Positions 16,405 to 57,605 of a stretch of DNA of 64,000 nt are shown here, piece after piece. The stretch comes from Patiria pectinifera (Eukaryota; Echinodermata; Asteroidea; Valvatida; Asterinidae), in the NCBI GenBank assembly GCA_029964075.1, contig CM057144.1:12299281-12363280 (forward strand), given 5' to 3'. How positions within the stretch are numbered: the first letter of the stretch is position 1; each line of letters opens with the position of its first letter. The position numbers and the translations under genes were made by a program. The notes beneath the pieces were generated by a model. It saw only the letters and a program-made list of their open reading frames with translations. It ran no database searches and was not told the origin of the DNA.

Positions 16405-19400
16405 ATGGCTAGCCGAGGTAAAGTGGAAAACAACCTGTATGTAATGACACGCCCTATTATCATAAACATCGTTAGTTTGCATGGCCTTTGTACTGTAGGT
16501 TGAACTATATGAGCTGCAACATGGCTGCGATAACTGGTTGTATCGGGAGTGCTTAGGGGCCATTCAGAATTTTCAATGTTTTAAAATTTCGATCTTTTTT
16601 TTCAAATTGTGGGTGGGTGGGTCAAGCTAAATAATTGAAAATCGAAATTCACTTTCCATGGAAAAAAAAGAAAAAAAGAAAAAGAAAGATATATCTTTTG
16701 ACTTGCCTGAGCTACGCGCAAGCGTTCCGATATCGCGATGCGTGTTTCATTTCCAACTTCGTCCCCTGTATGTACTGTCAGTGGCGTAGCCAGGAATTTT
16801 TCAGTGGGGGCTGGGGGGCTGGAACATTTCATGGGGGCGTCATGTAGATCAATGATAATTTTTTCAGAAACTCAAAATCTCAGTGGGGGAGGCGACTGTC
16901 GCCCCCCACGCCCCGGTGGCTACGCCACTGCAGGTCATACAGTTAAAGTTTATGTAAACTTGTATGAAAAGTCAAAGAAAAGTAACTCCCATGATTTATT
17001 TGACACCAAGTTTGTGTTAACTTGTCGGTAACGCCCTAAAAAATTATCCAGACAAATATGTTTATTTTGTAACATTTTATGTTCGTCTGTCGGTCTTCTA
17101 TGCTGTTATGTTTACTTTTAGGTACCTTCAATGGTAATATGTGTAATTAACCTGTTCATTTGTGTAATTAAACTAATAACGCACAGATAGTTGCCAAATA
17201 TGGCACTAACAAGTTTGAGGTCGGCAATTTCGTCTTTAAAAATCTGGGTACGTCGGGTTACCGTACTCACAATTGTCCTGGAAACAACACTACCTAAGTA
17301 CAGACAGTCGTACGCAAGAGCTCCCCAGCAAGTATCGCTGACGCCATTATGACTCCAAAATTTCTCACTGTGTCACACAGTGAAATAACTAAACAGCGTC
17401 GTTGTATTGTGAACACATAAAAACATTAAAGTCGCGTTCTTGCACACTTTCTGCAAGTCGTCATAGATATCCTTGAACCACTGCCCCTGCTTTGCATAAC
17501 AAGTGCACATGAGTGAACGATTCGACTTTTATTCAAAGAAATTTCTATGTACAGTCACCAGACTCTATTCAGTAAAGTCCCCGTCAAAACGAAAGTAAAC
17601 AATCCACGTGCATCAGCACGGCTACACCATCGTACAATGTGGAAGGGACACCAACAAGTAACACAACAACTAAAAATAATATTTAAAAAAAAAGATAAAT
17701 ATTCTGATTGAATTTCGTTAAAAGATACTTGTTGGTGAACTATCACATTTTCTAGCAAATTGATAAAAATGTACAATATTACAATATGCAATTTTGAGGG
17801 AAATGGGAAAAATACTGCATAAATAATTTCACTTGATCATATTCATAATACATAAACCGACAATTTTCATTTTCAGACCCACAACGAGAAATATTGTTAA
17901 CACTGGGCTTATTGTGAGGAGTTGTGCTGGGGATCCATGAAGATGTTATTTTCAACATAATTTCTAAACAATTTAATGGGACATTCCGTGACATGAGCCT
18001 TCCAGATGAAAAGTTTGTGTGGGAAAGTATGGTACACTATGAAGCCCGGGAAGGGACAGGGTGGATTTTTTTTTTTGGAGTTTGCTAATTCGTTCGCACG
18101 AATTACTAATTCGTTCGCACGAATTACTAATTCGTGGGAACGAATTAACAAACTCCAGTAATTCGTTCGCACGAATTAACAATTCGTTCGCACGAATTAG
18201 TAATTCGTTCGCACGAATTACTAATTCGTGGGAACGAATTAGTAATTCGTTCGCACGAATTACTAGGCTTAATTCGTTCGCACGAATTACTAATTCGTGC
18301 GCACGAATTACTAATTCGTTCCCACGAATTGCTAATTCGTTCGCACGAATTAGTAATTCGAGGGAACGAAATAGTAATTCGTGCGAACGAATTAACAATT
18401 TGTGCGAACGAATTAGTAATTCGTGCGAACGAAATAGCAAACTCCAAAAAAAAATCCACCCTGTCCCTGTCCCTGTCCCTTCCCGGGATTCATAGTACAC
18501 AAGCATGACTGTGTGATTCAAAAGCAGTTGTTGATGCGATCCCTGAATTTACAGCACTCCGTTTAACGGTGCATACCAATACATAAATTCCCATAGGCAC
18601 CAAAGATAAATACCCCAATTTAAACAAATCAGGGAACATACTCTGAACCCTCACAGGTGATCAAAACATACATCAAATGAAAGCTGAATTAATCCTCTTT
18701 ACCTTTTTGGAAATCTTTTTTTTGGGGGGGGGTTGACCTATGACTTTTAGGTAATTTTTCCCTCCAACGATGATCACCCCATCGCCATTTTGAAGGAAAA
18801 AAACACAAAAAACAAACAGATTCCTTCCACTCCATATCAATATAGATTCCATTCAAATGTTTTGTTCAGAAATCCAAATTCAGGAACATGGACCCTTCAC
18901 TTCTACAAATACAGACCCTCAAGTGCAGGGGCCAAAATTCTTTATTATTACAGATAAACTAGTATACAAATCGTAATTTGGCCGGATTAGGTCGCGCCTA
19001 TTTGGGCTGCCTCTCATATGTACTACGATCGGGAAATCTCCAGCGTAATAAAGACTTGACGAAACTTTATTTGATTTATTTGATTCAATTATTTTATTTT
19101 AAATCTTAAAACATAAAATAAAAGCTAAAAGTTGGACAGGCTGCCACGGATATGTAAAAGTTAAAAAAACCCACAATTGTCATCAAACATTTAGCCAAAC
19201 CCCTGCCAATAAAACAGATTTAAAATTCCATTCATAAAAATTAAAGTACTATTGAAAAGTAAATTGTACAAATCATACGAGACGAGACATGACGAGACAT
19301 GACGAGACGAGACAAGACGGGGAGATGAGACAAGACTCAACAAAAAAATCATAGAGTGAAATATTAGACAAACCAGACAGATACAAAAATATAAAAACGA

Positions 19401-22400
19401 ACTAATAAATAAATACTCTTACAACCCAACAAACAAACAAACAAAACAAACAACCAGACTCAATGACGGGAATGAATGACAAACGGGCTAAAAAGATTAT
19501 TACAAACAAAACAAAACAAAACAAAACAAAACCGAGAAACAAAAGCAATCCCATTCCCCAGAGAGAAAAATGCAAACCATAAAAACAACCTAGTTGACAT
19601 ACATAGGTCTACACTCACATTAAATACACACACTAAAGAAACAACAAGAAAATACCCGGGAACAAAATGAAATAAGACACAATTTTACATGGAAGATAAA
19701 ATAAATATGACTGCAATAATTCCTTCCTCAGTTTTGAAAGAAAAGATTCACAACCTAACTTTTTCTAATTTTAACACGGTGACTTCGGAGAACATCAATG
19801 ACGCAATTGAACAGTTCTCTTGTAATCCACGTGTCTATCAGTTCTAAGTTTCAAGTAGTGAAACGTTAAAGGCTGTGCGACGGAGCTGCCCTGCAATTCA
19901 TTCCTGAAATTATTGTTGCATTCCCTATTAGTTCATTAACTTTATATTAGAATCATTATTATTATCTATGATATCGAATTTGGCGGGAAACAGAGCTTTC
20001 ACACAGTGACTTTACTGGTTTATTTAACTTCGTGGGGATTCCTCCAACGTCAGGCTTTTCCTTGGTTTCAACACCGGTGTCGGAGTCTCACAACACTAAC
20101 TGGGGGAACCAAGTATGCCAAAGAGTCTAGCTGAACCGAGTTCATAAAAACTGGACTATTCAACCACTTGACTCCAAGACTACCAGGACCGCAGCCTGTG
20201 ATGTGATGTCTGCCCAACCCTGATGTTTCCTTTCGCTCGTACCCCCCGCCCTGCAAACAGGGCGGGGGGGGGGGGTACGAGCGAATTTTTTTCTCAGCTA
20301 CCTCACATGACAGGCACAACCTTGTATGTCACATGTCATCCACTTCATCCAAAAAAACGACAAAACCACGGTCATCTTTGTGGCTTCCAAAACTGCAACC
20401 TGTCATTCCCAACAACAGCATATCAGCTGGCAAAACACAAGAAAACTGAAGGTCACCAGTGCAAAAGAGGAAGACCAACAACTTCACGCCGTCACTGAAC
20501 TAGACACACATGTACATGGTGTTCAAGTACATGTACATGCAAGTGCATTTACATGTTCAGTTTTTTATTAATCGAAATTAGGGGTGCGTGGGTGGGTCAA
20601 AATAATTTGGAAACAAGTCGAAATTTTAAAACTGTGAAAATTCTGAATGGCCTCTTATTCCGTCTACATTAAAATGCTTGTGGATCGAGATCTAACCCCC
20701 CCCCCCCCCGGCCCGGTTCTGGGTGGGACGTAAATTATCCTTGTGATGAATTCTCACAGATGTTAGTTGCCATGCAATAAAGATGGTCTGTACAGCAGCA
20801 TATCGTCGCCAGCTCTGGGCATTAAGGGGGGAGGGGGGCACAGTACAAACTAGATATGCTAGGGGGCACAGCATAAGAAAAACACACTTAGGTCTACATA
20901 TAATTTGTACGCTTATGGTTTTTGCCGATGGGGGGCGGGGGGCGGTGGGGGGGGCGGTGGCCCGGCCCCCGGCCTGCGCCCCTCAATTGACGACAGGCCT
21001 GCTGTAGAGACTGAAAACAATTTTGGGCCGATTTAAATATGCCTTGCTATCTCATGACAGTCAGCAGGTTTGCCGTCAGGGTTGTCATCTGATATATCGC
21101 CGCAAAAAGGGGGAGGGGGAAGGAAGGCGTGGCTGTGATGACAGCGAATAGGAGTTCTGTCGAGAAAATTACACGGAAGGTATATGGAAAGCGACAGTTC
21201 TTTGTTTGTGATGATAATTAGATCGAATTAGAATTCCAAAGGTCTGCGAAACCCGGAAATAAAATCACAATAATATGTTCGTGATGCATGCAAGGGTTTA
21301 AGGTGATTTGATCATATATTTTTTGTGAATTTTGAATGTATTTCTGGTCCGGCGGTAATTCCATTCTCGCGGGGTACACTGGTTTCCGCCCCTGTCGGAA
21401 TCAGTCATCTACTCACAATTTACTCACAAGCAGGATTTGTTTGTGAGCCAGATCCACATCCAAGATCAAGCCTGTTTTTCAAAGGGTTACAGCCGACAAG
21501 AATAAAAATGGATGCATAGTTTTTGTAAACATAAAATAATTAGGCCTATACAGGTGGAAAATACTCCGAGAAAAAAAAAATCGGTTCTGTTGAGGAACAC
21601 GGACGGTACATGTTCAAACTGTCGTTCGCAGGTGGGAGGGTTATCTCAGATGAGTCCCTAGCAAAAACAGCCTCGGCACTTGGAGACACCTGGCCGAGTC
21701 TTGCTGAGCATCTTGGCTTCGATCAGGAGGAATGTCTGTCCATCCAAGTGGCATATTTGGGGGATGTTAAGGAACAAGCCCGGCACATGTTGACGGCATG
21801 GACGGAGAGATACACCGGCGTGGACAAGCAAGGATTCCTCATCGGGGCTCTGAGGAGGATTGGACGGTACGACCTGCTGGGAGATCACGGTAAGCGTTTT
21901 GGGAAAAATGTAGAAAGCCTATATTGATGTCACTTTAGTTAGTGTGTAAATAGTCTTTAGCAGCCCTAAAGGATCTAAAGTATTTTATTTAATAGAAATG
22001 TTCATCGACAGGCCCAAAATGTTAGCAATCTAATCATAATAAAGTAGACTTGATAACACCCAACACAAGTAAGGAAGGTAACATTTTCTGCAAGAAAAAG
22101 TAGAAAGTTGTTTTCAGCTCTCCCATATTGAAATCGTTCGTTCTAACCCATTATATTAAAAATTATCCCAATTCATGTGATACAATCACTTGATGTGTCT
22201 TACGAATGCGTTTCAAATTAATGAACCACGCCTGGTTGCCGCTGGAATGATCAACGTTCAACCTGCGTCTATAAATTAACAGGTGCGGAGGTTTTTGATG
22301 ACTCTTTGCTGGTGCCTTTGGCTGATGCGCTTGGAGAAGCCTGGCAGACACTGGCTTTTTATCTACACCTGGACGACAATCAGATTGTAAGCATCGCAGA

Positions 22401-25400
22401 GTTAGTTGACCAAGTTCAAGGGCAGGCTCGACGCATGCTGACGGTGTGGAGAGAAGACTACACAGGCATTGACATGATTGGTCAGTTGACCAAGGCACTG
22501 AAGCGAATGGGGAAGTATGACCTGCTGAAAATAATAGGTAAGAATCTCGTCATTTATTGTCATCCATTTTCACTGTCATATTATTTCGAACTGGTAATGA
22601 CGAGAGCCTTAAATCATCAGAGAATTACGATGTGCTAAACAAATAACAGCTTTTCATTTATTTGCGAAAAGATAATGTCTACACAGGATGTAGAGATACA
22701 AGTAATCTTAAATAATGGGCTGTAAACAATCGAGGTTGCATCAGTAAGATATTGTTTATGGGCTTTCAAGTTCCACTTATATTTCGCTTGAAACTGTTGG
22801 AAGTGGAGACTGGGATTTTAAAATCGGAGGGTCATTATTCTTTGCAAAAATAATTGCTTTTGAGTTTTTTTTTGTCACTTCTGAAAAAACCACCCACTGT
22901 TGTTTAAAGTAAACAACGGACTCTGCCCACTTTATTTTCCTGACAGGGATGGAAATTGTGGACGAGCAGTCTCTCCAGAAACTGGCGGAGGAACTTGAAG
23001 GAGAATGGAAAGAGGTAGCAGAACATCTTGGGTTTGACGACGTCGATTGTGGCAGCATCCGCGTCACTTACCCAGAAGGCGGCAAGGAACAGGCCTGGCA
23101 GATGCTTAAAGCTCTCCGGGAGCGGCACCATGGTCTTGTCAAGATGGACGAATTGAAAGGCGCCCTCAAGAAAATCAATCGGTATGATCTGCTGAAGTTG
23201 CTGGGTAAGCATCTTTATATTTTTAATGGTCATTTTGGAGAATCGGTTTGGATAAGAGAAGCGCCACGCCCTTTCAGTTCGCAAACAAATGGATTAAAAA
23301 TATCCGTCTAGCTAGCTAGGGAACTGAGAATGTGAAGCTTTTGTATTTCAAGATCTTTTGTATACAGTCCCTGGTCAAATAATATTGGACTCGGAATCCG
23401 GGGTCTATTCGGCCTATAAAGCTCGTCATTGTCAGACATGAAATTGAAACGTAAAAGGTTTCCTGGTCAAAATGACCCAGACATTATCTAGGGAAGGAAA
23501 GGTGTCATTTCTGAACACGAAAAGTACTTATTACAACAAGGATTTCGGTCATTCTGACTTAAAGGAACTTTTTAGAGTGTACAGGGGACAAAACCCTCAT
23601 ATCAGAATTAAATGTTGAGCAGTGCACTTGTCCATCAATAGCGCCGAATTGGTCTGGAGATCTCCCAAAATGAATGAAGTCCGTGAAAATGATTCTTGAG
23701 ATTATTTCAAAATGGCTCTCATACTGACTGCGCTCCTCTGGCGTTCGTGATGACGAGCTGGTCCAACGCAAGTGGAAGTAAAGAACCTAATTCTCCTACC
23801 GATACTATCTGTCTTCTGATCAATATAGGTGAGGAGATTCTGGAGACAACCACCATCCGCAAGATTGCTAGGGGCTTAGATAAATCCTGGCCGGAGTTGG
23901 CTCTCTATCTCCTGATGGACGAGGTCCAGTGTGAAGAAATCACGAAGTACAATTCAGAGCCCTGGCAGCAGGCCGAGGAGATGTTGGTTCTCTGGCGAGT
24001 AGACTTCGAAGGTGCTAACCCTGTGGAGCACGTGGGCAGAGCTCTGATGATGATGAACCGCGAAGATCTAGCTCAAGAACTTGGTAAGCCAAGGATGGTC
24101 CAAGTAGACACAGGAAAGCCAATCTCTATTTTTCTTTTATGATAAGTTTTTGTGCAGGTGCAAAAAAATTCACAAAACACTAATTGTTAATGAAAACAAC
24201 ATGAAGAATTGCGGCCCTCTAGCTCTCTGTGTGGACAAAAAAAAATACACCGTAATATTACGATTGAAACGAGTGAAGCATATTCCTCGTTTTTCTTAGC
24301 ATGCTATGATTACTTGCTGAGAATCCACATAATTTAGGAGTAAATAATAGAATGTTTAACCTTTGCACCAAATCGCGATCTCGTTCCAATTGCAGTACCG
24401 TCGCAACAGCTTCAACCGTGTGGGAGATGCGACAATGCAAATCCCTTCAAGATGCGAAGATACTACAGCAAAGACTACGAAGGTTGTACCCGTGTGATTG
24501 GTCTTTGCTGCGCCTCATGCGGCCAGGAGTGGCTCTCAGAGCGCTTCTTGTTCCATCCAGACGTGGACAACACGCGCCCGTGGGTGAAACTCGGCGGGGT
24601 CGTGCTGAAGGAACAACTAGAGGTACCCGTGGAGAAAAACCCGGTCTTTCAGGTGAAGGACTGTCGCACCAAGATTGAACACTTCGACGACATTAGTCAT
24701 TACTTAAAGGTAGGGGATCATATCACGTGGCACCGCCCTTATGTCATATGGCACCATGCAGTCGTGTCTGGCCTTAGTGATGAGGTTGGAAAAGTCAAAG
24801 TTATACATTGGCATAAACCAAACTGCAGCGTTCCGGCGCAGATTGTTGAAGAAGAGCTTGACTTGCGCCAGCAGTGGGGTGACACGTTTCGTATCGATTA
24901 TCCTGATGAGATTACCGAGGCCAACACGACGGAGTTGGTAATTGCCCGGGCTGAATCGAGAAAGGGGGACATTGATTACAATCTGTTCGGAGATAACTGC
25001 GAAGCGTTCGCGTCTTACTGTAAGACCGGGATTGCGGAGAGTTGCCAGCTTGACTGGCTGCGACAAAAATGCAAGGAAATTGTGGACCAAGCGCTCACTG
25101 GTCTCGCGGACGGCGTTAATAGTCTCGTTAATAGGGAGATAACTATTGATGAGCTGTTGGGGAGAGAAAAAGAAGCAAAGGGATCGGTGGCTAAATCTGA
25201 GATCTGGGAGAGGATCGGGCAGGGTACTAACTTGACTGGGGCGGGCCTTGTGTTCTGTTTCGAAGGTAAAGCGTGCTACTGGGACCTCACACAGGTGTAT
25301 GAGAAAAGAAAGTCAGGCGACATTTCTTTGAAAGATTTCATTAAAACTGCTTCACGGCGTGTGAGCGAAGCATTTGTTGTTGCCGGACTTGCTTCATGGT

Positions 25401-25924
25401 CACGCGTGAAGGGGCGGGCTGCAGGGGGTGTTTTGGGCAATTTCATTCTGCCTGGAATAGGAGCGCCAATTGGTGCGTTTCTCGGAAGCGTCTTCGGAGG
25501 CAATTTGGGTTATGTTTTCGGGAAACCCCTGGGCTCCATTGTCGGAGCCCAAATCGGCCGTGCCATAGCTTCTGCAATGGGGACCGACGACAGGGCAGTG
25601 AAGAGAATTGAGGACCTGAACCCGGGAGACCAAGTCGTGTTTTACGGCAACCTGCTGCATCCGAGACACCACGCCATAGTGGTTGACAAGTTCCCAGGTT
25701 CGAAGAAAGTCCAGGTGGTACACAACACCTACGAGCAGGGTGTGGTAGAGGAGAAAGTTGATTTCAACCAGCCTGTCCCTAGGCTGGTGTACGACGAGCG
25801 GAAGTGTTATCCGCCTGACGAGGTGATCCAGAGGGCCCGATCTAAGATCGGGGACGAGACCTACCGATACTCCTTAGTCTGGAACAACTGTAAGCATTTT
25901 GCTCAATGGTGCAAACTGAAGTAG
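16405..25924 (+). CDS. Death-domain x4 / LRAT-like x2 protein, gene 1
   Basis: Predicted exons: 16405-16417 (MASR), 21632-21889, 22283-22537, 22947-23204, 23829-24083, 24396-25924. Every junction is phase 1 with AG/GT borders; the product is 855 aa. Exons 2-5 each encode one Death domain of about 85 residues (pattern LA..LG..W..LA..L, then A..ML..W, then AL...R.DLL). Exon 6 starts with a Cys motif (CGRC ... CCASCGQEW), then LRAT-like domain 1 (KVGDH, WHHAVV at H466/H467, VIHW H484, DNCEAF C548), a linker, a Gly-rich hydrophobic stretch (about 681-742) and LRAT-like domain 2 (PGDQV, HHAIV H771/H772, VVHNTY H789, NNCKHF C845). LRAT/NlpC-P60 enzymes act on acyl-lipid or peptide bonds through such His/Cys pairs, and Death domains mediate assembly in apoptosis and immunity. 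The combined role is inferred. The short first exon rests on its conservation in gene 2 and matching phase. Confidence 0.88.
16779..16930. mobile_element. short MITE with CAGTGGCGTAGCC termini
   Basis: It starts CAGTGGCGTAGCCAGG and ends GGTGGCTACGCCACTG, giving 14-bp inverted repeats around a 152-bp G/C-run interior. This type of terminus is common on short DNA transposons in marine invertebrates. I see no clear target duplication. It is nested in the larger insertion. Confidence 0.65.
18032..18500. mobile_element. foldback element built of ATTCGTTCGCACGAAT palindromes
   Basis: The outer inverted repeats run about 50-70 bases each: GAAGCCCGGGAAGGGACAGG and a T-run then GGAGTTTGCTA on the left, mirrored by TAGCAAACTCC and the A-run through CCCGGGATTC on the right. 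The interior is about 16 units of a 21-base sequence that is itself palindromic (AATTCGTTCGCACGAATT). GGGACA is repeated three times in the right arm and once in the left. The units lack stop codons in several frames, which explains the long open frames on both strands; I do not call any of them a gene. Confidence 0.8.
19278..19337. repeat. GACGA-type simple repeat
   Basis: Imperfect repeats of ACGAGAC/ATGACGAGAC occupy about 60 bases inside intron 1, followed at about 19430-19530 by (ACAAA)-type repeats. Low-complexity sequence only. Confidence 0.7.
20232..20285. repeat. hairpin with 22-base arms and poly-G/C core
   Basis: TTCGCTCGTACCCCCCGCCCTG is followed after a 4-base loop by its complement, with extra Gs in the right arm. 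It lies inside the 4.1 kb insertion. The G run has probably slipped since the arms formed. Confidence 0.75.
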
Positions 25925-28754: not shown

Positions 28755-31700
28755 CTTACTTACTGCTTACTGCTTACTGGTCCCGTAACCCGCCGGGGTC
28801 GTAGGGGCGCTGCATGGATGAGTGTTGGATCAACTGGTTCCACCTCTGACGGTCGTGAGCAAGGGCCTGTGTTGTGGTAAAGCTTTCCCTGGTCCATTCG
28901 GCGATGTTGTCTGTCCACTTTTTCCTCTGTCTGCCCCGTCTCCTCCTTCCCTGCACTGTACCTTGGAGGATTGTCTTTGACAGTCCGCTTGCTCTCGTAA
29001 CATGTCCGTACCACCTCAGTTTCCTTTTCTTCACCGTGGTCAGTAGATCTTCGTACCGGCTGACATGTTGTCTGATGGTTCTTCGGACCTCCTCGTTTGT
29101 AATGTGGTCTGTGTAAGAGATACCAAGGACTCTTCTAAAGCATCTCATTTCCACTGCTTGGATCTTATTTTGCAGTGCTGCTGTTAGTGTCCATGACTCA
29201 CATGCATACAGGAAGATTGAGAGGACCAATGCGTGCAGGAGCTTCAGCTTGGATTTGAGAGCAATGTTCTTGTCTCTCCAGATTGGCCTGAGTTTTGCTG
29301 TTACTGCTGTTGTTTGTGCAGCTCTTGCGAGGATTTCGGTCTTTGATCCCTCCTCACTGATGATGGCGCCGAGGTATTTGAACTGTTTCACTGTCTCTAG
29401 CTCTTGGCCTCTGACTGTGATTGGCTCCGTGCTGTTTGTCATCAGTTTGGTCTTTTCTGCACTAATCTCCATGCCGTATCTGGAGCATGTTTCATCCAGA
29501 CAGTTCACCAGGTTGGCGAGTTCTTCTTCCTTCCCTGCCAATCCGTCAATATCATCGGCAAAGCGAAGATTTGTGATGATCCACCCTCCAATGCCTACTG
29601 AGCCGGCATGGTCCTCCAGGGCATCTGTCATTATACGTTCCAGGAAAATGTTGAACAGTGTGGGCGACAGGAGGCAGCCCTGACGGACTCCAACAGATGT
29701 TTTGAACCATTCACCCACTGAGCCTTGAACAAGTACCGCACTGCTAGCCTTGGCGTACAGTTGCCTGATGATTTGGATCAGCTTCTGTCCCATGTTGTAT
29801 TTCTTCATTGTGGCCCAGAGTGCGTCATGCCACACCCTGTCGAATGCCTTCTTAAAATCAATGAAGACATGGTAGATATCTTGCTGATGTTGACTGTATT
29901 TTTCGCACAGAACCCGCACATTGAATATTTGTTCTGTGGTACTTCTTCCACTGCGAAACCCGGCTTGTTCTTCGGCGATAATTTCTTCAGCCTGAGGTTT
30001 CAGCCTGTTCAAGATGATCTTCAGCATCGCCTTGCTTGCGTGGATGATTAGGCTGATAGTTCTGTAATTTTTACATTGCTGTAGGTTGCCTTTTTTGGGG
30101 AGCATAATGATGAGTGACTGTGACCAAGGTGTTGGCCACTCTCCAGTTTGCCATATCTTGTTGCAAATTTTGGTGAGGATGTCTGTCACTGTATCTCCTC
30201 CGTGTTTTATTAATTCAGCAGGGATGTTGTCTACTCCTGCAGCTTTCCCACTCTTCAAGGATTTGATAGCTGCTTCAACCTCCTCACGTAGAATTGGGTA
30301 GTCGTCGTTGTTCGACGATTCCTGGTCTGTGAGCACATTAGGATCTCCATGTAGCTGGTAGTTGTAAAGGTCTGAACAATACTCCGTCCATCGATCTATG
30401 ATGTCCTTTTCTTCCGTGAGACAGTTACCATCTTTGTCTTGGATCGTGCTGCCTCTTGACTGTCTCTGTTTTGTGAGATCCTTCACAACTCGGAATGCTC
30501 GCCTACTGTTGTTCTTGTTGAGGCTGTCTTCGACGTCCATGCACTGTTTAGCAACCCAGTCATCTTAAGCCCTGTACATGGCTTTCCTGATCTTTTTGTT
30601 GATTACTTTGTATGTTTCTGCTCCTGTTGCTGTGTTCTTACTTTTCTTCAGATCTCTCATTTTGTCACACAATTCTAGGATCTCATCTGTCACCCAGGGT
30701 TGGTTTTTCCAGGGGTGTTTGCCTAAGATCTCATCCGCTGTTTCTGTCATCACTGCATTAAACTTGGTAGTCATTGCTTCAGTATCTTCGTCAAGCGTTA
30801 GCAGTGGTGCAAATTTTCCGCCAATTATTGCTTGAAAGGATTCCACAATAGTGGGGTCCTTCAATTTGTCTAAGTTGAACTTCAGTCCGATGTTCTTTGG
30901 CTTGTTGATCTTCTTCAGCCGTACTCTAAAGTTCATGATCACCAGGTTGTGATCACTACCTACATCTGCACCTGGGAATGACCGCGTTTTGGCTCTCTTG
31001 ATTCCTGATCGAAACCGGTTTTGCACCAGGATGTAATCGATCTGACTATGGTGTCTTCCGTTAGGAGCATGCCAGGTCCAGCGTCGTGATGCTTGATTGA
31101 CTCCAAGGGTGTTGGCCAGTACCATGTCGTTGTAACTGGCAAATTCTAACAGGCGTAATCCTCGTTCGTTGGTTTTAGCATTGCAGGAGGGGCCACATAA
31201 TTTCTTCCAGTCTTTAAGCGCATCGGCTCCAACCTTGGCGTTCCAGTCACCCTGGATGATTAGTATGTCTTTATTGTCAGCCCTATTGATGATGCCCTGG
31301 AGTTGGGTGTAGAATTCCTCCACTTGGTCATCATCGTAGGCTGTTGTTGGTGCATATGCCTGTACAATTGTGATGTTAAATGGTGTTGCTCGAAGGCGGA
31401 TGGAGATAAGTCTACTGGATATTGGGCGGCACCCGAGCACTGAGTTTCTGATGTTCTTGTTAACAAGGAACCCAACGCCATTGGTGTGTTTATCAGGTTC
31501 TCCGCTGTAGTACAGTGTATGACCTTCCTCTGTAAGGTGTTCTCCAAGATTCTTCCATCTGACTTCACAGAGACCCACAATGTGCCAGGTGTATCTCACC
31601 AGCTCATGCGTGAGTTCTTGCAGTTTCCCTGCCTGTGAAAGCGTTCTCACATTCCATGTAGCGAATGTAATGTTATCCCTCCCACGGATGTTCCGTGGTG

Positions 31701-32203
31701 AGGTTGCACCAGTAGCATATTTGTCACCTCCGCCCTGGTGTACGACGAAAGGCGCGGACCTTGTTAACCCGGGCGACGACCGATCCGGTGTAGTAGTTGA
31801 TATTTTGCTCATCATCATGTAGTGTATCTTGGGCAGAGTAAACCTGGCGGCGCCCATCCCTCTCCAGGTTTGACCACAGCCGACTTCCTCCAACTAGGTG
31901 GGTCGCCCTGATCACGAACACGTAGCCGTTAAGTTCATCTAGGAACTCTTCCGCCCTGGCCGGTGAATTCATCGAGGAAGACTTTCGCCCAGTGGGGTGC
32001 CATGTTAACACCACCCCCTCACGTGGTTTGGCCCGCCAGCTGAAGCGGTTACCGGGGTGTGGCGCTTGGAGCCATCACGTGAGAGATTAGTGGATGGATG
32101 AGGACCAGCGATGTCGGTCCACCCTGCCATGTAGGGTGCAGCTGCCAAACATCAAAAGGTGCTACCTCTATCCAAACCACCACCTCTATCCAAACCACCA
32201 ATA
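28755..32203 (-). mobile_element. RTE-like non-LTR retrotransposon, nearly full length
   Basis: Comparison with the uninterrupted intron at 14419-14450 brackets the insert to about 3.45 kb. On its own strand it runs from a leader with the repeat GTGGTTTGGATAGAG (twice), through an endonuclease and reverse transcriptase frame, to a short-repeat tail of AGTAAGC/AGTAAG units rather than poly(A). Such tails, one frame carrying apurinic-type endonuclease plus reverse transcriptase, and a length of 3-3.5 kb fit the RTE group; CR1/L2-type is the alternative. The target duplication is unclear. Confidence 0.85.
28774..31893 (-). pseudogene. LINE endonuclease / reverse transcriptase polyprotein with one nonsense codon
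   Basis: One frame of about 1,040 codons is broken only by TAA at 30565-30567; the parts on both sides are in the same frame. The N-terminal part is an exonuclease/endonuclease/phosphatase domain (FATWNVRTLSQAG, GLCEVRW, IQGDWNAKVG, SQIDYILV, GSDHNLV). The C-terminal part is a reverse transcriptase (FRSGRSTTEQIF, VFIDFKKAFDRVWH, GVRQGCLLSPTLFNIF, LRFADDIDGLAG) followed by a conserved tail (KLRWYGHVTRA, GRRRRGRQRKKW). Host annotations often mislabel the first part as craniofacial development protein 2. The enzyme would nick target DNA and copy its own RNA into the site. With only one stop it is a young copy, but inactive as written. Confidence 0.9.
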
Positions 32204-33594: not shown

Positions 33595-36500
33595 ATGGCT
33601 AGCCGAGGTAAAGTAGAAAACAACCTGTATTTAATGACATGCACTCGTTATCGTACCATAAACACTATTAGTTTGCATGGCCTTTGTACTATAGTTTGAA
33701 CTGTATGAGCTGCGATAACTGGTGGTACCGGGAGTGCTTATTCCGTCTACATTAAAATGCTTGTGAATCGAGATCTATACCCCCCCCCCGCCCGGTTCTG
33801 GGTGGGATCGACGTACGTAAATTATCCTTCTGCGGGATTCTCACAGATGTTAGTTGCCATGCAATAAAGATGGTCTGTACAGTAGCATATCGTCGCCAGC
33901 TCTGGGCATTAAAGGGGGGGGGGGGCACAGTACAAACTAGGTATGCTAGGGGGCACAGCATAAGAAAAACACACTTAGGCCTATGTATGAATTGTACGCT
34001 TATGGTTTTTGCCGGGGGGGGGGTGGGGGCGGTGGCCCGGCCCCCTGCGCCCCTCAATTGACGACAGGCCTGCTGTAGATAGACTGAAAACAATTTGGGG
34101 CCGATTTAAATATGCCTTGCTATCTCATGACAGTCAGCAGGTTTGCCGTCAGGGTTGTCATCTGATATATCGCCACAAAAAGGGGGAGGGGGAAGGAAGG
34201 CGTGGCTGTGGTGACAGCGAATAGGAGTTCTGTCTAGAAAATTACACGGAAGGTATATGGAAAGCGACAGTTCTTTGTTTGTGATGATAATTAGATCGAA
34301 TTAGAATTCCAAAGGTCTGCGAAACCTGGAAATAAAATCACAATAATATATTCGTGATGCATGCAAGGGTTTAAGGTGATTTGATCATATATTTTTTGTG
34401 AATTTTGAATGTATTTCTGGTCCGGCGGTAATTCCATTCTCGCGGGGTACACTGGTTTCCGCCCCTGTCGGAATCAGTCATCTACTCACAATTTACTCAC
34501 AAGCAGGATTTGTTTGTGAGCCAGATCCACATCCAAGATCAAGCCTGTTTTTCAAAGGGTTACAGCCGACAAGAATAAAAATGGATGCATAGTTTTTGTA
34601 AACATAAAATAATTAGGCCTATACAGGTGGAAAATACTCCGAGAAAAAAAAAATCGGTTCTGTTGAGGAACACGGACGGTACATGTTCAAACTGTCGTTC
34701 GCAGGTGGGAGGGTTATTTCAGATGAGTCCCTAGCAAAAACAGCCTCGGCACTTGGAGACACCTGGCCGAGTCTTGCTGAGCATCTTGGCTTTGATCAGG
34801 AGGAATGTCTGTCCATCCAAGTGGCATATTTGGGGGATGTTAAGGAACAAGCCCGGCACATGTTGACGGCATGGACGGAGAGATACACCGGCGTGGACAA
34901 GCAAGGATTCCTCATCGGGGCTCTGAGGAGGATTGGACGGTACGACCTGCTGGGAGATCACGGTAAGCGTTTTGGGAAAAATGTAGAAGGCCTATATTGA
35001 TGTCACTTTAGTTAGTGTGTAAATAGTCTTTAGCAGCCCTAAAGTATTTTATTTAATAGAAATGTTCATCGACAGGCCCAAAATGTTAGCAATCTAAATA
35101 ATCATAATAAAGTAGACTTGATAACAGCCAACAAAAGTAAGGAAGGTAACATTTTCTGCAAGAAAACGTAGGAAGTTGTTTTCAGCTCTCCCATATTGAA
35201 ATCGTTCGTTCTAACCCATTATATTAAAAATTATCCCAATTCATGTGATACAATCACTTGATGTGTCTTACGAATGCGTTTCAAATTAATGAACCACGCC
35301 TGGTTGCCGCTGGAATGATCAACGTTCAACCTGCGTCTATTAATTAACAGGTGCGGATGTTTTTGATGACTCTTTGCTGGTGCCTTTGGCTGATGCGCTT
35401 GGAGAAGCCTGGCCGACATTGGCTTCAAATCTACACATAGACGACCATCAGAGTGCAAGCATCGTAGGGTCATTTGACCAAGTTCATGAGCAGGCCCGAC
35501 GCATGCTGACGGTGTGGAGAGAAGACTACCCAGGCAGTGACATGATTGGTCAATTGACCAAGGCACTGAAGCAAATGGGGAAGTTTGACCTGCTGAAATT
35601 AATAGGTAAGAATCCCGTCATTTATTGTCACCCATTTTCACTGTCACATTATGTCCAACTGTTCACGACGAGAGCGTTAAAGGGAATATACATCATTTGC
35701 TTTTGCCATAATTTTTAGAAATGGATGGAATTGGGGGGTTGGAAATGTATACAAAATATAGTTACACTGACTTTTTTTGAGGTTTTGGGTTCGAAAATGC
35801 TATAAAAACCAAGAAAAACAATCATTTTCCTGTAGTCTGGTTCCCTGACTCCATATAAGAAGAAAAAGAGCAGTTTACATACATTGGGGAATTGTAAGGT
35901 CAGGGTACCAGTCTAGCTGGCTTGTACCCGTTCATAGGTGTGTAATCGATCGCAAAAAAGTGTGATGGTCAATTGGGGCCAGTATTTGAAAAAAGCCAGT
36001 TTTTTCCAACGCTGGTAGGTCGACCAGCGTTGGAAATTGATACAAAAATACCACTTTTCTTGAAAATGACAGTATACCAGGTGCCATGATTTTACAGGAT
36101 GCTTTACACTGTCATTCACTAACAGTCCAGCAAGGTATTTCAAAATGATTTGGTAGTTTTATTTTTTGATGTTTGCAAATGTTGTATTTTCCCTTTAAGT
36201 CATCAGAAAATAATAATAATAATAATAATAATAATAACTGGATTTATAGAGCGCCAAATTGCCAAAGGATACAAGGCGCTGGATAGGTTAAACAAGTAAC
36301 AGCTTCAAATAGGATAGGTTAAACAAGTAACAGCTTCAAATACCTAAATTAATGATTATTGCAATGTGTTTATTTATTTGCGAAAAGATAATATCTATAC
36401 AGGGTGAAGAAATAAAGGTAATCTTAAATAATAGGCTGGTAAGTGAACAATTGAGGTTGCATCAGTAGATAATGTTTATGGGCTTTCCACTGATATTTCA

Positions 36501-39217
36501 ATTGGAACTGTTGGGTGTGAATGACTGAGATTTACTGGTTTAAAATCGGAGGGTCATCATTTTTTTGCCAAAATAATTACTAATGAGTTTTTTGTCACTT
36601 CTGACAAGGCAAAAAAAAAATAGCAAAAAAAAACCCCTAGTTGTTTATAGTAAACTACGGACTCTTCCCGATTTATTTTCCTGACAGGGATGGAAATTGT
36701 GGACGAGCAGTCTCTCCAGAGCCTGGCGGCGGAACTTGAAGGAGAATGGACGGAGGTAGCGGAGCATCTTGGGTTTGACGATACCGATTGTGGCAGCATC
36801 AGTGCCGCTTACCCCGAATGCGGCAAGGAACAGGCTTGGCAGATGCTTGAAGCCCTGTTGGAGCGACATGATGGTCTTGTCAAGATGGGCGAATTGAAAG
36901 GCGCCCTCAAGAAAATCAATCGGTACGATCTGCTGAAGTTGCTGGGTAAGCATCTTGATATTTTCGAATGGTTATTTTCGGGAATCGGATGTCCAACCCA
37001 AGTGGAATTAAAGAACCTGACTCTTTTACCGAAACTATCTCCTGTCTTTTGATCAACAGGTGAGGAGATTCTGGAGACAACCACCATCCGCAAGATTGCT
37101 AGGGGCCTGGGTGAATCCTGGCCGGATTTGGCCCTCTATCTCCTGGATGAGATCCAATGTGAAGCGATCACGGAGTACAATTCAGAGCCCTGGCAGCAGG
37201 CCGAGGAGATGCTGGTTATTTGGAGACAAAACTTCATGGGCGATTATCCCGTGGAGCACTTGGGCAGAGCCCTGATAATAATTGACCGCCAAGATCTAGC
37301 TCAAGAACTCGGTAAGCCACATTAATCAACAATTAGAATGTTCCAAGTGGACACAGAACAGCCTTTTTCTTGAGTTTTCTTGAGAGTTTTCTTTTTTTTG
37401 AACTTGTTAATCATATAAGTATGTGCACAATCATTCATTAAACATTACAATCCCATCTTTACGTGTATATCAAAAACAAACATGGAGGATTAAACCCACA
37501 TCCGTGTGAAAAAAAACCACTCGAGAAATATTAGGAGTAAAACGAGTAAAACATATTCCTTATTTGTGAACATACTGAGAATCCACCCCACCCCAACCAA
37601 ATAAAACAAGAAGAAAATAAATATAAGTTTGTAATATGTTATATCTGTGCACCACATCACGGTCTCATTACAATTGCAGTACCGTCGCAACAGCTTCAAC
37701 CGTGTGGACGATGCGGCAATGCAAATCCCTTCAAGATGCGGCGATACATCAGCAAAGACTACGAAGGTTGTACCCGTGTGATTGGTCTTTGCTGCGCCTC
37801 ATGCGGCCAGGAGTGGCTCTCGGAGCGCTTCTTGTTCCATCCAGACGTGGACAACACTCGCCCTCGGGTGAAACTCGGTGGGGTCGTGCTTAAGGAACAA
37901 CTAGAGGTACCCGTGGAGAAAAACCCGGTCTTTCAGGTGAAGGACTGTCGCACTAAGATTGAATACTTCGACGACATTAGTCATTACTTAAAGGTAGGGG
38001 ATCATATCACGTGGCACCGCCCTTGGGGCATATGGCACCATGCAGTCGTGTCTGGCCTCAGTGATGAGGTTGGAAAGGTCAAAGTTATTCATTGGAATAA
38101 ACCAAACTGCAGCGTTTCGACGCAGATCGTTGAAGAAGAGCTTGACTTGCGCCAGCAGTGGGGAGACACTTTTCGTATCGATTATCCTGACGAGATTACC
38201 GCTGCCAACACGCCGGAGTTGGTTATTGCCCGGGCTGAATCGAGAAAGGGGGACATTGGTTACAATCTGTTCGGAGATAACTGCGAAGCGTTCGCGTCTT
38301 ACTGTAAGACCGGGATTGCGGAGAGTTGCCAGCTTGTCTGGCTGTATCACAAATACACGGAAATTGTGGAAAAAACGTTGACTGATCTTGCGAACGGCGT
38401 GTGGGGGGTTGGGTTTAGTCTCGTCAGGAAGATCGCTAATGATGCGTTGGCGGGGGGAGGAAAAGAAGCAATGGGTGCGGTGGCTGAAGCTGAGATCTGG
38501 GAGAGGATCGGGCAGGGTACTAACTTGATTGGAGCGGGCCTTGTGTTCGCTTTTGAAGGTAAAGCGTGCTACTGGGACCTCACACAGGTGTATGAGAAAA
38601 GAAAGTCAGGCGACATTTCTTTGAAAGATTTCATTAAAACTGCTTCACGGCGTGTGAGCGAAGCATTTGTTGGTGCCGGACTTGCTTCATGGTTAGGCGT
38701 GCAGGGGCAGGCTGCAGGGGGTGTTTTGGGCAATTTCATTCTGCCTGGAATAGGAGCGCCAATTGGTGCGTTTCTCGGAAGCGTCTTCGCAGGCACTTTG
38801 GGTTATGTTATCGGGAAACCCCTGGGCTCCATTGTCGGACCCCAAATCGGCCGTGCCATAACTTCGGCAATGGGGACCGACGACAGGGCAGTGGAGAGAA
38901 TCGAAGACCTGAACCCGGGAGACCAAGTCGTGTTTTACGGCAACCTGCTGCATCCAAGACACCACGCCATAGTGGTTGACCAGTTCCCAGGTGCGAAGAA
39001 AGTCCAGGTGGTACACAACACCTACGAGCAGGGTGTGGTAGAGGAGAAAGTTGATTTCAACCAGCCTGTCTATAGGCTGGTGTACGACGAGCGGAAGTGT
39101 TATCCGCCTGACGAGGTGATCCAGAGGGCCCGATCTAAGATCGGGGACGAGACCTACCGATACTCCTTAGTCTGGAATAACTGTAAACATTTTGCTCAAT
39201 GGTGCAAACTGAAGTAG
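33595..39217 (+). CDS. Death-domain x4 / LRAT-like x2 protein, gene 2
   Basis: Predicted exons: 33595-33607, 34705-34962, 35351-35605, 36688-36945, 37060-37311, 37680-39217, all phase 1 with AG/GT borders; 857 aa. Domain order equals gene 1: four Death domains, Cys motif (CGRC ... CCASCGQEW), LRAT-like domain 1 with WHHAVV, VIHW and DNCEAF, linker, Gly-rich hydrophobic stretch, LRAT-like domain 2 with HHAIV, VVHNTY and NNCKHF. Death domain 1 differs from gene 1 at almost no residue; Death domain 2 and the linker after LRAT domain 1 differ much more, and the linker is three residues longer. Death domain 4 is one residue shorter (LLDE against LLMDE). All putative catalytic residues are kept. 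Intron 1 is only 1.1 kb, lacking the transposon of gene 1. Function is inferred as for gene 1. Confidence 0.88.
35681..36194. mobile_element. piggyBac-like MITE, 514 bp, TTAA target
   Basis: In gene 1 the intron reads GAGCCTTAAATCATCAG (TTAA at 22609-22612). Here TTAA stands on both sides of a 514-bp insert (35677-35680 and 36195-36198). The ends are inverted repeats, AGGGAATATACATCATTTGC against AGGGAAAATACAACATTTGC, three mismatches in 20. A duplicated TTAA is the mark of piggyBac-type insertion. No transposase is present. Confidence 0.85.
36205..36345 (+). repeat. SINE-tail fragment with (AAT)n and a 31-bp tandem duplication
   Basis: An (AAT)n run is followed by ACTGGATTTATAGAGCGCC and CCAAAGGATACAAGGCGCT, which resembles the tail of the SINE at 44.4 kb. 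Then AGGATAGGTTAAACAAGTAAC-type sequence occurs twice in direct tandem. The paralogous intron lacks this block, so it inserted after the duplication. Confidence 0.55.
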
Positions 39218-50072: not shown

Positions 50073-51668
50073 TCAGGGCAATTTCTTCACTTTACACCAC
50101 CTTGCAAAGGTCTTGCAGTTATTGAAAGCCAGTGAGTACTTGTAAGTTTTATCACCGATCTTTGATCTGGCTCTCTCAATGACCTCTTCAGGCAGATAGC
50201 AATCCATTTCATACAGGAGCCTGTACACGGGGGATATGAAATCAAGCTCCTCCTCCACCACACCTTTCTGGTAGGTGTGATGCACCACTCTGACCTTACC
50301 CGTATCTGGGTCACAACTCACGACTATGGCGTGGTGTCTGGGATGCAACAAGAAGCAATAGAAGACAATCTGATCACCTGGTTGCAGGTCATTAATGCTC
50401 TTCACAGCCCTGTCATCGGTCCAGATGATGATTGAGGCAAGTGTACGCCCTATCCAAGGTCCAACCACATACCCTCCTCCCTTAGCCCCAAGTATACATA
50501 CGATGACTCCTATTATACCCCCTAATATTAAACTTCCTTTTCCCAAACTAGAAGTGGCCACTGCCACCTTTGCTCCTAGGTATCCCCCTACTGTGCAAGA
50601 CCCGGCGCTAGCCAGCACATCAACAACACGATGAGTGGAAGTTTGAAGGAAATCCACACGGGACATGTCACCGTTGGCTCTTTTTTTGTAAATCTGGCTA
50701 AGGTCATAGACACACCAAACTCCATCTATGGAAACTATGATACCAACACCTATGCCAAGGATTTTCTTGCATTCATTCTCACACTCTCTGCGTATCTCCT
50801 TTCCAACACGGATCGATGTTGTTGCCAGTTGTGTGACTGTCCCGTTCGGTTTGGTCTGACACATCTCGAGTAACTCATTTCCTTCAACGACCATTGGTAT
50901 GGCGATATTTTTTATTATAGTTTGGTAAACGCCTTGACCAACGGATGTGTCGTAGCTGACCGTCAAAAGTGGTTGCAAAGTTTTCAACGACCAATTCAGC
51001 CAGACACGCTGGCAGCTCTCTGTATAAACCCCATTCTTGCAATACGAAGCGTACGCTTCGCAGTTATCCCCCAACAAATTGTATTTACCAGGGTCATCAA
51101 ACATGGCTCTAGCCCGGGCAATAACCAGCTCAGGCGGGTTGATATTAGTAACCTCGCCAGAGTAGTCAATGCGGAACAATTGCCCCTTTTCTGTGCTCAA
51201 GTCAATTGAACTCTCTTTCCTCTCCTTTACTAAAGTCGCTGTCTTTTTCCAATGTATGACTTTTACCTTTCCTGCCTCATCGCCGATTTCTGATACGATG
51301 GCATGATGCCACAACCCCTTAGGCCGATGCCAAGAGAGGTGATCCCCCACCTTCAGGTCATCGCCCTCGAACTTGAAATTCCTGCTCATGGTGCGTCTAC
51401 AGCTTACCTGGAAGGCTGGGTTTCTCTCAATGGGTATCTTGAGTTGTTTCTTGAGGACGACATCATTGACGTTCACCGAGGGGCGGGGGTTGTTTTCATC
51501 TGGACGAAACAAGAACTGCTCTTTCAGCCACTCTTGACTACAATCAGTACCGGTACAGCACATGCCGAGTAACTGTTGATCGTCATAATAGAATCGGTAT
51601 TTGATGGGCTTGTCATTAGCACAGCGACACTCAGGTAGCTGAACATGTTCTGTACGGGGTATAAGCAT
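50073..51668 (-). CDS. double LRAT-like protein, gene 3 (no Death domains visible)
   Basis: A single open exon of 531 codons is homologous to exon 6 of the two Death-domain/LRAT genes over its full length. Order: Cys motif (PECRC ... CCTGTDCSQEW), LRAT-like domain 1 (KVGDH, WHHAIV H121/H122, VIHW H139, DNCEAY C203), a long divergent linker, a Gly-rich hydrophobic stretch (about 355-415, ILGGIIGVIVCILG), LRAT-like domain 2 (HHAIV H445/H446, VVHHTY H463, NNCKTF C518). The proposed catalytic residues are all present. A good acceptor (TTAATGTGCAG) ends 14 bases before this ATG, at 51683, in the same phase 1 as in the paralogs, so the ATG may be internal and upstream exons may exist; none is visible in the window, where a repeat nest begins 40 bases farther. 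Function as for its relatives, inferred. Confidence 0.85.
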   Translation of the reverse strand: MLIPRTEHVQLPECRCANDKPIKYRFYYDDQQLLGMCCTGTDCSQEWLKEQFLFRPDENNPRPSVNVNDVVLKKQLKIPIERNPAFQVSCRRTMSRNFKFEGDDLKVGDHLSWHRPKGLWHHAIVSEIGDEAGKVKVIHWKKTATLVKERKESSIDLSTEKGQLFRIDYSGEVTNINPPELVIARARAMFDDPGKYNLLGDNCEAYASYCKNGVYTESCQRVWLNWSLKTLQPLLTVSYDTSVGQGVYQTIIKNIAIPMVVEGNELLEMCQTKPNGTVTQLATTSIRVGKEIRRECENECKKILGIGVGIIVSIDGVWCVYDLSQIYKKRANGDMSRVDFLQTSTHRVVDVLASAGSCTVGGYLGAKVAVATSSLGKGSLILGGIIGVIVCILGAKGGGYVVGPWIGRTLASIIIWTDDRAVKSINDLQPGDQIVFYCFLLHPRHHAIVVSCDPDTGKVRVVHHTYQKGVVEEELDFISPVYRLLYEMDCYLPEEVIERARSKIGDKTYKYSLAFNNCKTFARWCKVKKLP

Positions 51669-51949: not shown

Positions 51950-52715
51950 TATTTGCAACCTTATTATATATATATATATAATTTTTGCACACTTTTTTTA
52001 TTTATATATAATTTATTTGTAACCTTTTTACTTATATATAATTTTTGCCCACTTTATTTATATATATATAATTTATTTGCAAACTTATTATTTATATATA
52101 ATTTTTGCCCACTTTATTTATATATATATAATTTATTTGGTACCTCATTATTTATATATAATTTTTTGCCCACTTTATTTATTTATATATAATTTATTTG
52201 GTACCTCATTATTTATAAATAATTTGTTGCCCACTTTATTTATTTATATATAATTTATTTGGTACCTCATTATTTATATATAATTTTTGGCACGCTTTAA
52301 TTATTTATTATATAATTTATTTGGTAACTTATTATTTATATATAATTTTTGCACACTTTAATTATTTATTATATAATGCATTATTTATTATATAATGCAT
52401 TATTTATTATATAATGCATTATTTATTAAATAATGCATTATTTATTATATAATGCATTATTTATTATATAATGCATTATTTATTATATAATGCATTATTT
52501 ATTATATAATACATTATTTATTATATCATGCATTATTTATTATAAATGCATTATTTATTATATAATGCATTATTTATTATATAATTCATTATTTATTATA
52601 TAATGCATTATTTATTATATAATTCATTATTTATTATATAATTCATTATTTATTATATAATTCATTATTTATTATATAATTCATTATTTATTATATAATT
52701 CATTATTTGTTATAT
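51950..52715. repeat. AT-rich minisatellites, left
   Basis: Two arrays: about 60-base units with TTTGGTACCTCATTATTTATA and TTTTTGCCCACTTTATTTA to about 52380, then an 18-19-base unit TTATTTATTATATAATGCA repeated about 18 times. Frames across them are artefacts rich in Tyr, Ile and Phe. Confidence 0.9.
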
Positions 52716-53525
52716 ACTTGTGCGCCCGAAGCGAACGAGGCTATGATTTATAAATAATGGTTTTCAGCAAACCAGGGAACCAGACTACAGCAAAGCCATT
52801 ATATATTATATAATGGTTTTCTGAGCTAAATAATGAAACTCGCATGCAAATTAACTTCACTAGGACACGCCTATGTTTTAAATATTCATATCACATAGAG
52901 CACCAAAACACCGCACTTGTTATAAAAAAAACACGCAGTATTGTGTATTTCGGGTATTGTGGGTCTGAATTTTTGTAATTTGCGCCCCGAAAGTATTGAA
53001 AATGACTCTCAAGTGCTGTAAGCTAGCATATTTCAGGTCAACGATTCTTAAAAATTACGGAGAAATTAGCTATGCACAACGCTCGCGCTAGCTAGCTACG
53101 ATGGCCATCATGATCTATCCCGCGGCAGTGCTGTCATATTAACGCTGATATAAGCGCGCCTGAGCTGACACTGCGTGCACCGTGCCGAGGTGTAGCGGGT
53201 ATCGGTAACGAACTGGATGCGCGCGGCAGAAAGTTTCGGGAAAACAAGCTGCTGCAAGTACAATCAGTACGCCCCGAAAATAAACAATAAATACAAATGA
53301 ATACATCAACACGGAAAAGGAAAACCACGGAAAATACATAATTACACATAATTGTGTAACCGAGACCGAGTTGACTAGGACCGAGTCTTTCGAGTCAACT
53401 CGACGGTCCCAGGTCAACTCGGTCCCAACTCGGTCCCAGGTCAACTCGGTTTTATGTCAACTTGATTGGGAGAAATTGATCTAGCAAGGAACCTTGGACA
53501 AAATTCAAATTGTGCCATAATAGGG
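52715..53525 (-). repeat. inverted module, left copy
   Basis: Reverse complement of 56649-57480 over about 830 bases, including TGCGCCCGAAGCGAACGAGG, ACCAGGGAACCAGACTACAG, TAGCTAGCTACGATGG, ACTCGGTCCCAGGTCAACTC and GCCATAATAGGG. The outer part (about 390 bases) occurs a third time at 54214-54600. The right edge meets the hairpin element at 53531. Confidence 0.85.
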
Positions 53526-54213: not shown

Positions 54214-54600
54214 AGGCCATCGTAGCTAGCTAGCGCGAGCGTTGTGCATAGCTAATTTCTCCGTAATTTTTAAGAATCGTTGACCTGAAATACGCTAGTT
54301 TACAGCATTTGAGAGTCATTTCCAATACTTTCAGGGCGCAAATTAGAAACATTCAGACCCACAATACCCAAAATACACAATACTGCGTGTTTTTTATAGC
54401 AAGTGCAGTGTTTTGGTGCGCTATGTGATATGAATATTTAAAACATAGGCGTGTCCTAGTGAAGTTAATTTGCATGCGAGTTTCATTATTTAGCTCAGAA
54501 AACCATTATATAATATATAATGGTTTTGCTGTAGTCTGGTTCCCTGGTTTGCTGAAAACCTTTATTTATAAATCATAGCCTCGTTCGCTTCGGGCGCACA
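54214..54600 (+). repeat. module copy, middle, partial
   Basis: From CCATCGTAGCTAGCTAGCG to CGCTTCGGGCGCACAA it matches 57087-57475 in the same orientation and 52715-53102 in the opposite one. It lacks the ACTCGGTCCC half of the full module. Confidence 0.85.
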
Positions 54601-57480: not shown

Positions 57481-57605
57481 TAATAAATAATGAATTATAT
57501 AATAAATAATGAATTATATAATAAATAATGAATTATATAATAAATAATGCATTATATAATAAATAATGAATTATATAATAAATAATGCATTATATAATAA
57601 ATAAT
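57475..57605. repeat. AT-rich minisatellite, right
   Basis: TTATATAATAAATAATGAA units, about seven copies, ending where the dispersed 315-bp repeat begins. Confidence 0.85.

Follow-up and report, generated by a model that had tools for sequence, protein, structure and literature searches.

Assemblies of Death domains drive proteases and kinases, and in PIDD, RIPK1 and FADD the partners of the domain are LRR (leucine-rich repeats), kinase and DED. The PLAAT (HRASLS) enzymes, which belong to PF04970, carry the nucleophile motif NCEHF. In these proteins, as described, one LRAT domain is followed by a C-terminal transmembrane (TM) segment (PMC9338259). In marine invertebrates, lineage-specific expansions of TRADD-N/Death-superfamily conflict proteins pair Death-superfamily domains with varied partners (PMC8195603). 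Here, we analyze a gene of the sea star Patiria pectinifera (gene A), whose predicted protein joins four Death domains to two LRAT domains. It lies in a window of 64,000 nucleotides (the whole stretch of DNA that was analyzed; C16:12299281-12363280) of a genome of 613.5 Mb in 1020 contigs, and all family comparisons were made inside this one genome.

Gene A resembles the PLAAT enzymes in its LRAT domains with Cys-His-His residues, in a hydrophobic segment of membrane type, and in the best PDB relatives of its last exon (exon 6) and of its first LRAT domain (LRAT1). However, its two LRAT domains flank a glycine-zipper stretch and the protein ends at the second one (LRAT2), both sit behind a Cys-rich segment and the four Death domains, and instead of NCEHF the pair carries NCEAF and NCKHF. 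By this architecture (two LRAT domains, an internal hydrophobic stretch and the NCEAF/NCKHF motifs), the predicted protein is not a PLAAT. Its Death domains match the same profile as those of PIDD, RIPK1 and FADD, but here four of them follow one another, each on its own exon, ahead of a papain-fold domain that resembles lipid enzymes and is part of the same protein. The pairing of a Death domain with a further partner recalls the TRADD-N conflict proteins; in contrast to these, the Pfam scan of gene A gave no TRADD-N match, and the words LRAT and NlpC are absent from the paper describing them.

The terms 'LRAT domain' and 'death domain' co-occur in no paper of one open-access library, and no description of the combination was found among the listings and excerpts from that library. 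The original prediction, which was made from the letters alone, knew of no described pathway of this kind. In an amphioxus study, lecithin retinol acyltransferase and a death domain are on separate genes (PMC5752451), and no LRAT-like domain appears in the excerpts of a further paper (PMC2575513). A database may already hold the combination as an architecture without a name. Each of the two domains belongs to a known family, and gene A is best described as a Death-domain effector fusion, not as something categorically new.

Exon model and domain content of gene A

Six exons of gene A join into one open frame of 855 codons plus stop and all five introns are in phase 1, as originally proposed; the introns have GT-AG borders. 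The features, all on the forward strand, are given below. Genes B, D and E are paralogues of gene A, and the aligned copies are the rows of the exon-6 alignment (A, B, C, E, F, L011, L019 and L020, of which L019 and L020 begin past the first Cys pair).

16405..16417, + strand: exon 1, start codon, MASR-G, phase-1 donor; ATG and donor kept in genes B and E
21632..21889, + strand: exon 2, Death domain 1 (PF00531, E 3e-12); AG/GT kept in B, D and E
22283..22537, + strand: exon 3, Death domain 2 (PF00531, E 4e-11)
22947..23204, + strand: exon 4, Death domain 3 (PF00531, E 2.9e-10)
23829..24083, + strand: exon 5, Death domain 4 (PF00531, E 2.2e-7)
24396..25924, + strand: exon 6, Cys-rich segment, LRAT1, middle piece with glycine zipper, LRAT2, stop (PF04970 in two stretches, E 1.7e-22)
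24398..24577, + strand: Cys-rich segment (CxxC ... CCxxC), possible zinc ribbon; CC and last C invariant in 8 of 8 aligned copies
24704..25033, + strand: LRAT1 (His466, His484, Cys548); PF04970 alone 49.5 bits; best PDB match HRASLS2/PLAAT2 (4dpz)
25370..25588, + strand: glycine-zipper hydrophobic stretch in the LRAT1-LRAT2 interval, enriched in small-x3-Gly
25553..25921, + strand: LRAT2 (His771, His789, Cys845); PF04970 alone 44.9 bits; homologous to LRAT1

The coding start exon has only 13 nt, the Death domains being encoded by exons 2-5. Compared with gene A, the exon 1 region is 97% identical over 169 nt in gene B and 86% identical over 144 nt in gene E. A second in-frame ATG occurs shortly 5' of exon 2 in A, B and E, but is replaced by ATC in D; since it is not conserved there, exon 1 was considered the better start where found, and a start at the later ATG was disfavored. 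Within intron 1 of gene A, at about 18066-18440, dense direct and inverted repeats of an 18-base palindrome-like unit (ATTCGTTCGCACGAATTA and variants), open in several frames, were seen by eye.

When the exons were scanned separately with Pfam, each of the four predicted Death exons exceeded the curated PF00531 cut-off of 22.6 bits, with matches starting at profile positions 2-7 and ending at 78-82 out of 86. The whole 855-aa protein gives four Death and two LRAT stretches and also passes the bDLD3 cut-off (35.3 versus 27.1). The Death and LRAT scores are far above chance and, by these sequence tests, the predicted protein belongs to both families. The closest PDB relatives of the Death profile are PIDD, THOC1, RIPK1, ankyrin and FADD. 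No NACHT or LRR is among the nine Pfam families listed for the protein, which thus lacks the architecture of an NLR receptor. The NCBIfam scan gave no match, and PADLOC returned only a weak, meaningless match to DpdH (E 0.0097), which was discarded.

Both LRAT units, scanned apart, lie above the PF04970 cut-off of 24.3 bits (E 6.5e-13 for LRAT1 and 1.7e-11 for LRAT2), although the best stretch within LRAT2 covers the Cys end only (profile positions 77-115). The placement of exon 6 in the LRAT/NlpC-P60 clan, which had been set beforehand as a check, is therefore borne out by the Pfam profile, and so are the two LRAT-like domains and their expected residues: His466-His467, His484 and Asn547-Cys548 in LRAT1, and His771-His772, His789 and Asn844-Cys845 in LRAT2. 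By sequence, the catalytic His, His-or-polar and Cys residues are in place in both units. These align with each other at 98.9% hhalign probability and 33% identity, with the His-His-Ala, second His and Asn-Cys columns in register. The top PDB match of the LRAT1 profile, HRASLS2/PLAAT2, has an E-value of 1e-4; the relatives of exon 6 (best E 8e-4) and LRAT1 are mostly PLAAT enzymes, at this weak level.

Among the aligned copies, His-His-Ala and Asp-Asn-Cys of LRAT1 are retained in all eight, and gene D, outside the alignment, likewise has His-His and Asp-Asn-Cys. The third triad residue is His in six copies and Gln in two (L011 and F, the latter also numbered L021). LRAT2 keeps Asn-Cys in six of the eight and has lost it in L019 and L020. 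Two further loci on C14 (L032 and L031, at ~15.74 and 15.77 Mb) contain only the middle piece, the glycine zipper and an LRAT2 whose cysteine is lost, the loss being judged by eye, so the middle piece and LRAT2 can apparently exist as a module of their own. In L031 (2837 to 969, minus strand), about 20 copies, counted by eye, of a 14-aa Ser/Glu-rich repeat precede the zipper and the Cys-less LRAT2. Based on these patterns, LRAT1 looks like the main enzyme, and LRAT2 may be partly structural, given that several relatives have lost its cysteine.

Between the two LRAT domains, a conserved piece is followed by a Gly-rich hydrophobic stretch of 61-77 residues, present in all eight copies. In gene A it holds 13 small-x3-Gly pairs against 7.2 in shuffled sequences (P 0.0005), and the enrichment has P < 0.05 in six of the eight; Pfam glycine-zipper models score below their cut-offs on the gene A stretch. 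The Cys-rich segment at the start of exon 6 had no match in the Pfam scan, and that it binds zinc is a guess. Elsewhere in the genome (C323:4421 and C20:31614281, 31661280 and 31825175), query residues 28-62, within this segment, have four short isolated matches of 70-73% identity, which lie in 44-aa frames and are perhaps separate exons.

Paralogues and the joining of Death and LRAT exons

With exon 6 as the query, 38 matches were obtained in the genome, all 67 candidates having been scored. They were grouped by hand into about 24 loci and four short fragments, and 15 of the loci were checked for Death exons. Seven carry them: A, B and D on C16, E and L017 on C14, F on C20, and L022 on C215. 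The six-exon frame is open in A (855 aa), B (857 aa) and E (854 aa), and exons 2-6 are open in D (852 aa), whose exon 1 was not found in the upstream DNA examined. In gene F, two or more Death exons are present, and the one nearer to exon 6 continues in frame into it through predicted splice sites. Exon 6 contains stops in two Death-bearing relatives, L017, a neighbor of E, and L022, which looks like a near copy of F. In A, B, D and E, the Cys-rich segment of exon 6 is not preceded by an in-frame ATG within the exon, so exon 6 needs another exon upstream. Judged from these gene structures, the joining of Death and LRAT exons is not due to chance.

Two further members of the family lie in the window. 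Gene B is a tandem copy about 13 kb downstream of gene A, and gene C, on the opposite strand, has no Death exon within 12 kb upstream in the window.

33595..33607, + strand: gene B exon 1
34705..34962, + strand: gene B exon 2, Death domain 1; same protein sequence as gene A exon 2 (100% identity)
35351..35605, + strand: gene B exon 3, Death domain 2
36688..36945, + strand: gene B exon 4, Death domain 3
37060..37311, + strand: gene B exon 5, Death domain 4
37680..39217, + strand: gene B exon 6, two LRAT domains; 89% identical to gene A
50085..51641, - strand: gene C, diverged double-LRAT exon belonging to this family; identity with gene A 46-50%

Between A and B, a pair of frames resembling a non-LTR retroelement occupies 28774-31893 on the minus strand, with a 596-aa frame matching RVT_1 (E 5e-44) and a 442-aa frame that is endonuclease-like by eye. 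Upstream of gene C, blocks of a 19-nt minisatellite are present at 52242-52790, 54577-54803 and 57413-57658, with long inverted repeats between them (up to 406 nt, 97%). L011 (C16:12383827) resembles gene C, and the two group with 100/100 support in the tree.

Other N-terminal domains were sought in the relatives without Death exons, but only short frames common to the loci were seen, none of which could be assigned (Pfam was not run on them). Prokaryotic or viral relatives of the double-LRAT exon were not confirmed by tblastn in 42 pattern-matched genome contig and 372 viral contig stretches, a search that required short conserved peptides and that distant relatives can escape.

History of the family and its genomic setting

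A tree built from 21 Death exons sorts the Death domains of the A/B/D/E-type genes into four clades, one for each position in the array (ultrafast bootstrap 98-100); thus, the four-domain array is older than the duplications that gave rise to these genes. The nearer Death domain of F falls within the clade of Death domain 4 (100/99), while the placement of its other one, on a long branch, is unsure. The nine-row exon-6 tree, which is rooted at the midpoint only, unites F with the four-Death genes at a modest level of support (80/83). Silent sites of exon 6 are saturated between A and F, so that dS is not computable, and the link of Death and LRAT domains therefore seems old.

Over all exons, NG86 dN/dS is 0.47 for A-B, 0.58 for A-D, 0.47 for A-E and 0.57 for D-E. 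Several short parts speak against simple constraint, as the ratio reaches 1.49 in Death domain 2 (A-B), 1.55 in Death domain 4 (B-D), 1.27 in Death domain 1 (D-E) and 1.5 in the middle piece (D-E); in the glycine zipper it is 3.5 for A-B (with a dS of only 0.019), 2.0 for A-D and 1.3 for B-D. Such values in short parts may reflect noise, relaxed constraint or positive selection. Directly 5' of exon 2, genes A and B are identical at 340 of 340 positions (21301-21640 versus 34374-34713), and their Death domain 1 does not differ in protein sequence (100% identity), against 78-89% identity in the other exons; this pattern looks like recent gene conversion or patchy exchange.

A strong expansion of the LRAT family is evident in this genome, with at least 160 matches (187 candidates, 150 scored), the majority of those listed being on C20, and of 595 Death candidates all 150 that were scored matched. 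This richness in both domains fits, without proving, an extensive set of innate-immune genes such as has been reported from marine invertebrates (PMC8195603). Some other LRAT frames are also multi-unit, such as a 949-aa open frame with four LRAT stretches at C20:5.39 Mb (L027, 2400-5246). Elsewhere on that contig (L029-L030, 28.576-28.596 Mb), the frames that come after a Death exon near 28.58 Mb look by eye like NACHT and LRR (an NLR), and about 5 kb beyond these lies a 492-aa frame with an LRAT match, similar to the two-LRAT frame of L028.

Proposed function and competing explanations

From the observed anatomy of gene A, its conservation and its catalytic-type residues, we infer how the protein might assemble, bind membranes, choose its substrate and act in the animal. 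We give a probability of about 50% to the reading in which it is a Death-domain-assembled, membrane-directed acyl hydrolase or transferase of PLAAT/LRAT type with an immune or cell-death output. Gene A would then be an adaptor-plus-effector protein, whose four Death domains would join a Death-domain platform acting upstream (a receptor, an NLR or an adaptor), either by recruitment or by co-assembly. Clustering would bring the hydrophobic stretch onto a membrane, where LRAT1, with or without LRAT2, would hydrolyze or transfer phospholipid acyl chains, and this chemistry would damage or remodel the membrane as the immune or cell-death output.

We propose Death-driven delivery or clustering of a lipid-acyl enzyme because gene A appears to hold a recruitment device, a membrane-type stretch and Cys-His-His LRAT domains in one chain, comparable to what has been used in work on PLAAT enzymes. 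When PLAAT3 was recruited to mitochondria with a dimerizer, these were fragmented and swollen within 30 minutes, with no detectable change for Cys113Ser, and PLAAT4 without its TM segment fails despite retained activity (PMC9338259). Downstream of IRF1 and interferons, PLAAT4, which has a Cys-His-His triad, serves as an antimicrobial effector; for Plaat1 and PLAAT3, translocation to damaged membranes depends on the hydrophobic domain (PMC10102619). In amphioxus, one gene annotated as LRAT was up by log2 11.4 after poly(I:C) (PMC5752451). The original prediction had suggested an effector in which Death-domain assembly switches on a membrane lipid enzyme. Its domain reading, exon joins and LRAT placement stand and are strengthened by the intact paralogues, while the switch itself fits the zipper stretch, the LRAT1 residues, the Death-rich genome and the PLAAT literature.

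Several observations weigh against this proposal. For LRAT2 by itself, no PDB match is significant (best E 0.071), and the nucleophile motifs differ from the NCEHFV of the eight top-scoring ordinary LRAT copies of the genome. The hhalign comparison with these eight covers the Cys-end half only (53 columns at 97.3% for LRAT1, 37 columns at 93.2% for LRAT2), the His half being unaligned. The zipper enrichment is not significant in two of the eight copies (P 0.078 and 0.052), and the hydrophobicity of the stretch is moderate, with a best 19-residue mean hydropathy of 1.6-2.2. Eight of the 15 loci checked (C, L011, L018, L019, L020, L023, L031 and L032) have no Death exon in the ~7-17 kb of upstream DNA examined. 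Finally, dN/dS is near or above 1 in some short parts of the genes, as detailed above.

It is conceivable, though unlikely, that the Death domains are localization modules only, and that they scaffold a lipid enzyme with an ordinary, non-immune job such as lipid mediator synthesis or organelle remodeling. The matches of the Death profile to ankyrins and THOC1 in the PDB, as well as the metabolic roles known for PLAAT enzymes (PMC11989323), would agree with this; however, the tandem and dispersed copies, the copies with stops and the moderate dN/dS give the impression of an immune family more than of housekeeping genes. We consider it improbable that the substrates of the papain-fold units are proteins or other amides (as for a peptidase, deubiquitinase or amidase) instead of lipids, considering that LRAT is the only enzyme family to exceed its cut-off in gene A, in both units, and that the weak PDB relatives are mostly PLAAT enzymes. 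DUF1287 and Peptidase_C97/PPPDE do match gene A below their cut-offs, and DUF1287 barely exceeds its own in gene C (25.6 versus 25). Both are papain-like too, DUF1287 being of the same Cys-His-His type (PMC10318531).

Even less probable is an enzymatically weak regulator or decoy that competes with other Death-domain or LRAT proteins. Such a role would suit the relatives in which LRAT2 lacks Asn-Cys (L019, L020) or, by eye, its Cys (L031, L032), or in which Gln is the third triad residue of LRAT1 (L011, L021), whereas in A, B, D and E neither unit has lost the expected residues. Lastly, gene A could be a wrong join of two neighboring genes or belong to a set of decaying duplicates, and the stops in exon 6 of the Death-bearing L017 and L022 could be seen in this light. 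We regard this as very improbable: the six exons of A, B and E and exons 2-6 of D share order, phase, splice sites and open frames on two contigs, and their exon 6 is without an upstream in-frame ATG. A wrong join was therefore judged unlikely, given that these copies are open.

The reading of gene A as a Death-assembled lipid-acyl enzyme draws on the intact copies, their conserved splicing and the constraint seen in dN/dS over all exons: a small Death-LRAT gene family of this build suggests an immune effector that would act on membranes upon assembly. A more far-reaching version, which we hold only tentatively and consider rather unlikely, is a hitherto undescribed class of innate-immune executioners in which tandem Death domains would deliver a twin-LRAT, glycine-zipper module that destroys or remodels the membranes of organelles or pathogen vacuoles through phospholipid acyl chemistry. 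Mitochondria and peroxisomes are already known to be disabled when PLAAT enzymes are brought to them by engineering (PMC9338259), and the Death-LRAT genes therefore look like a natural version of that switch. If true, this class would be the lipid-enzyme equivalent of caspases and gasdermins, acting downstream of Death-domain platforms, and the Death-LRAT fusion would mean that phospholipid chemistry can be the immediate output of Death-domain assembly.

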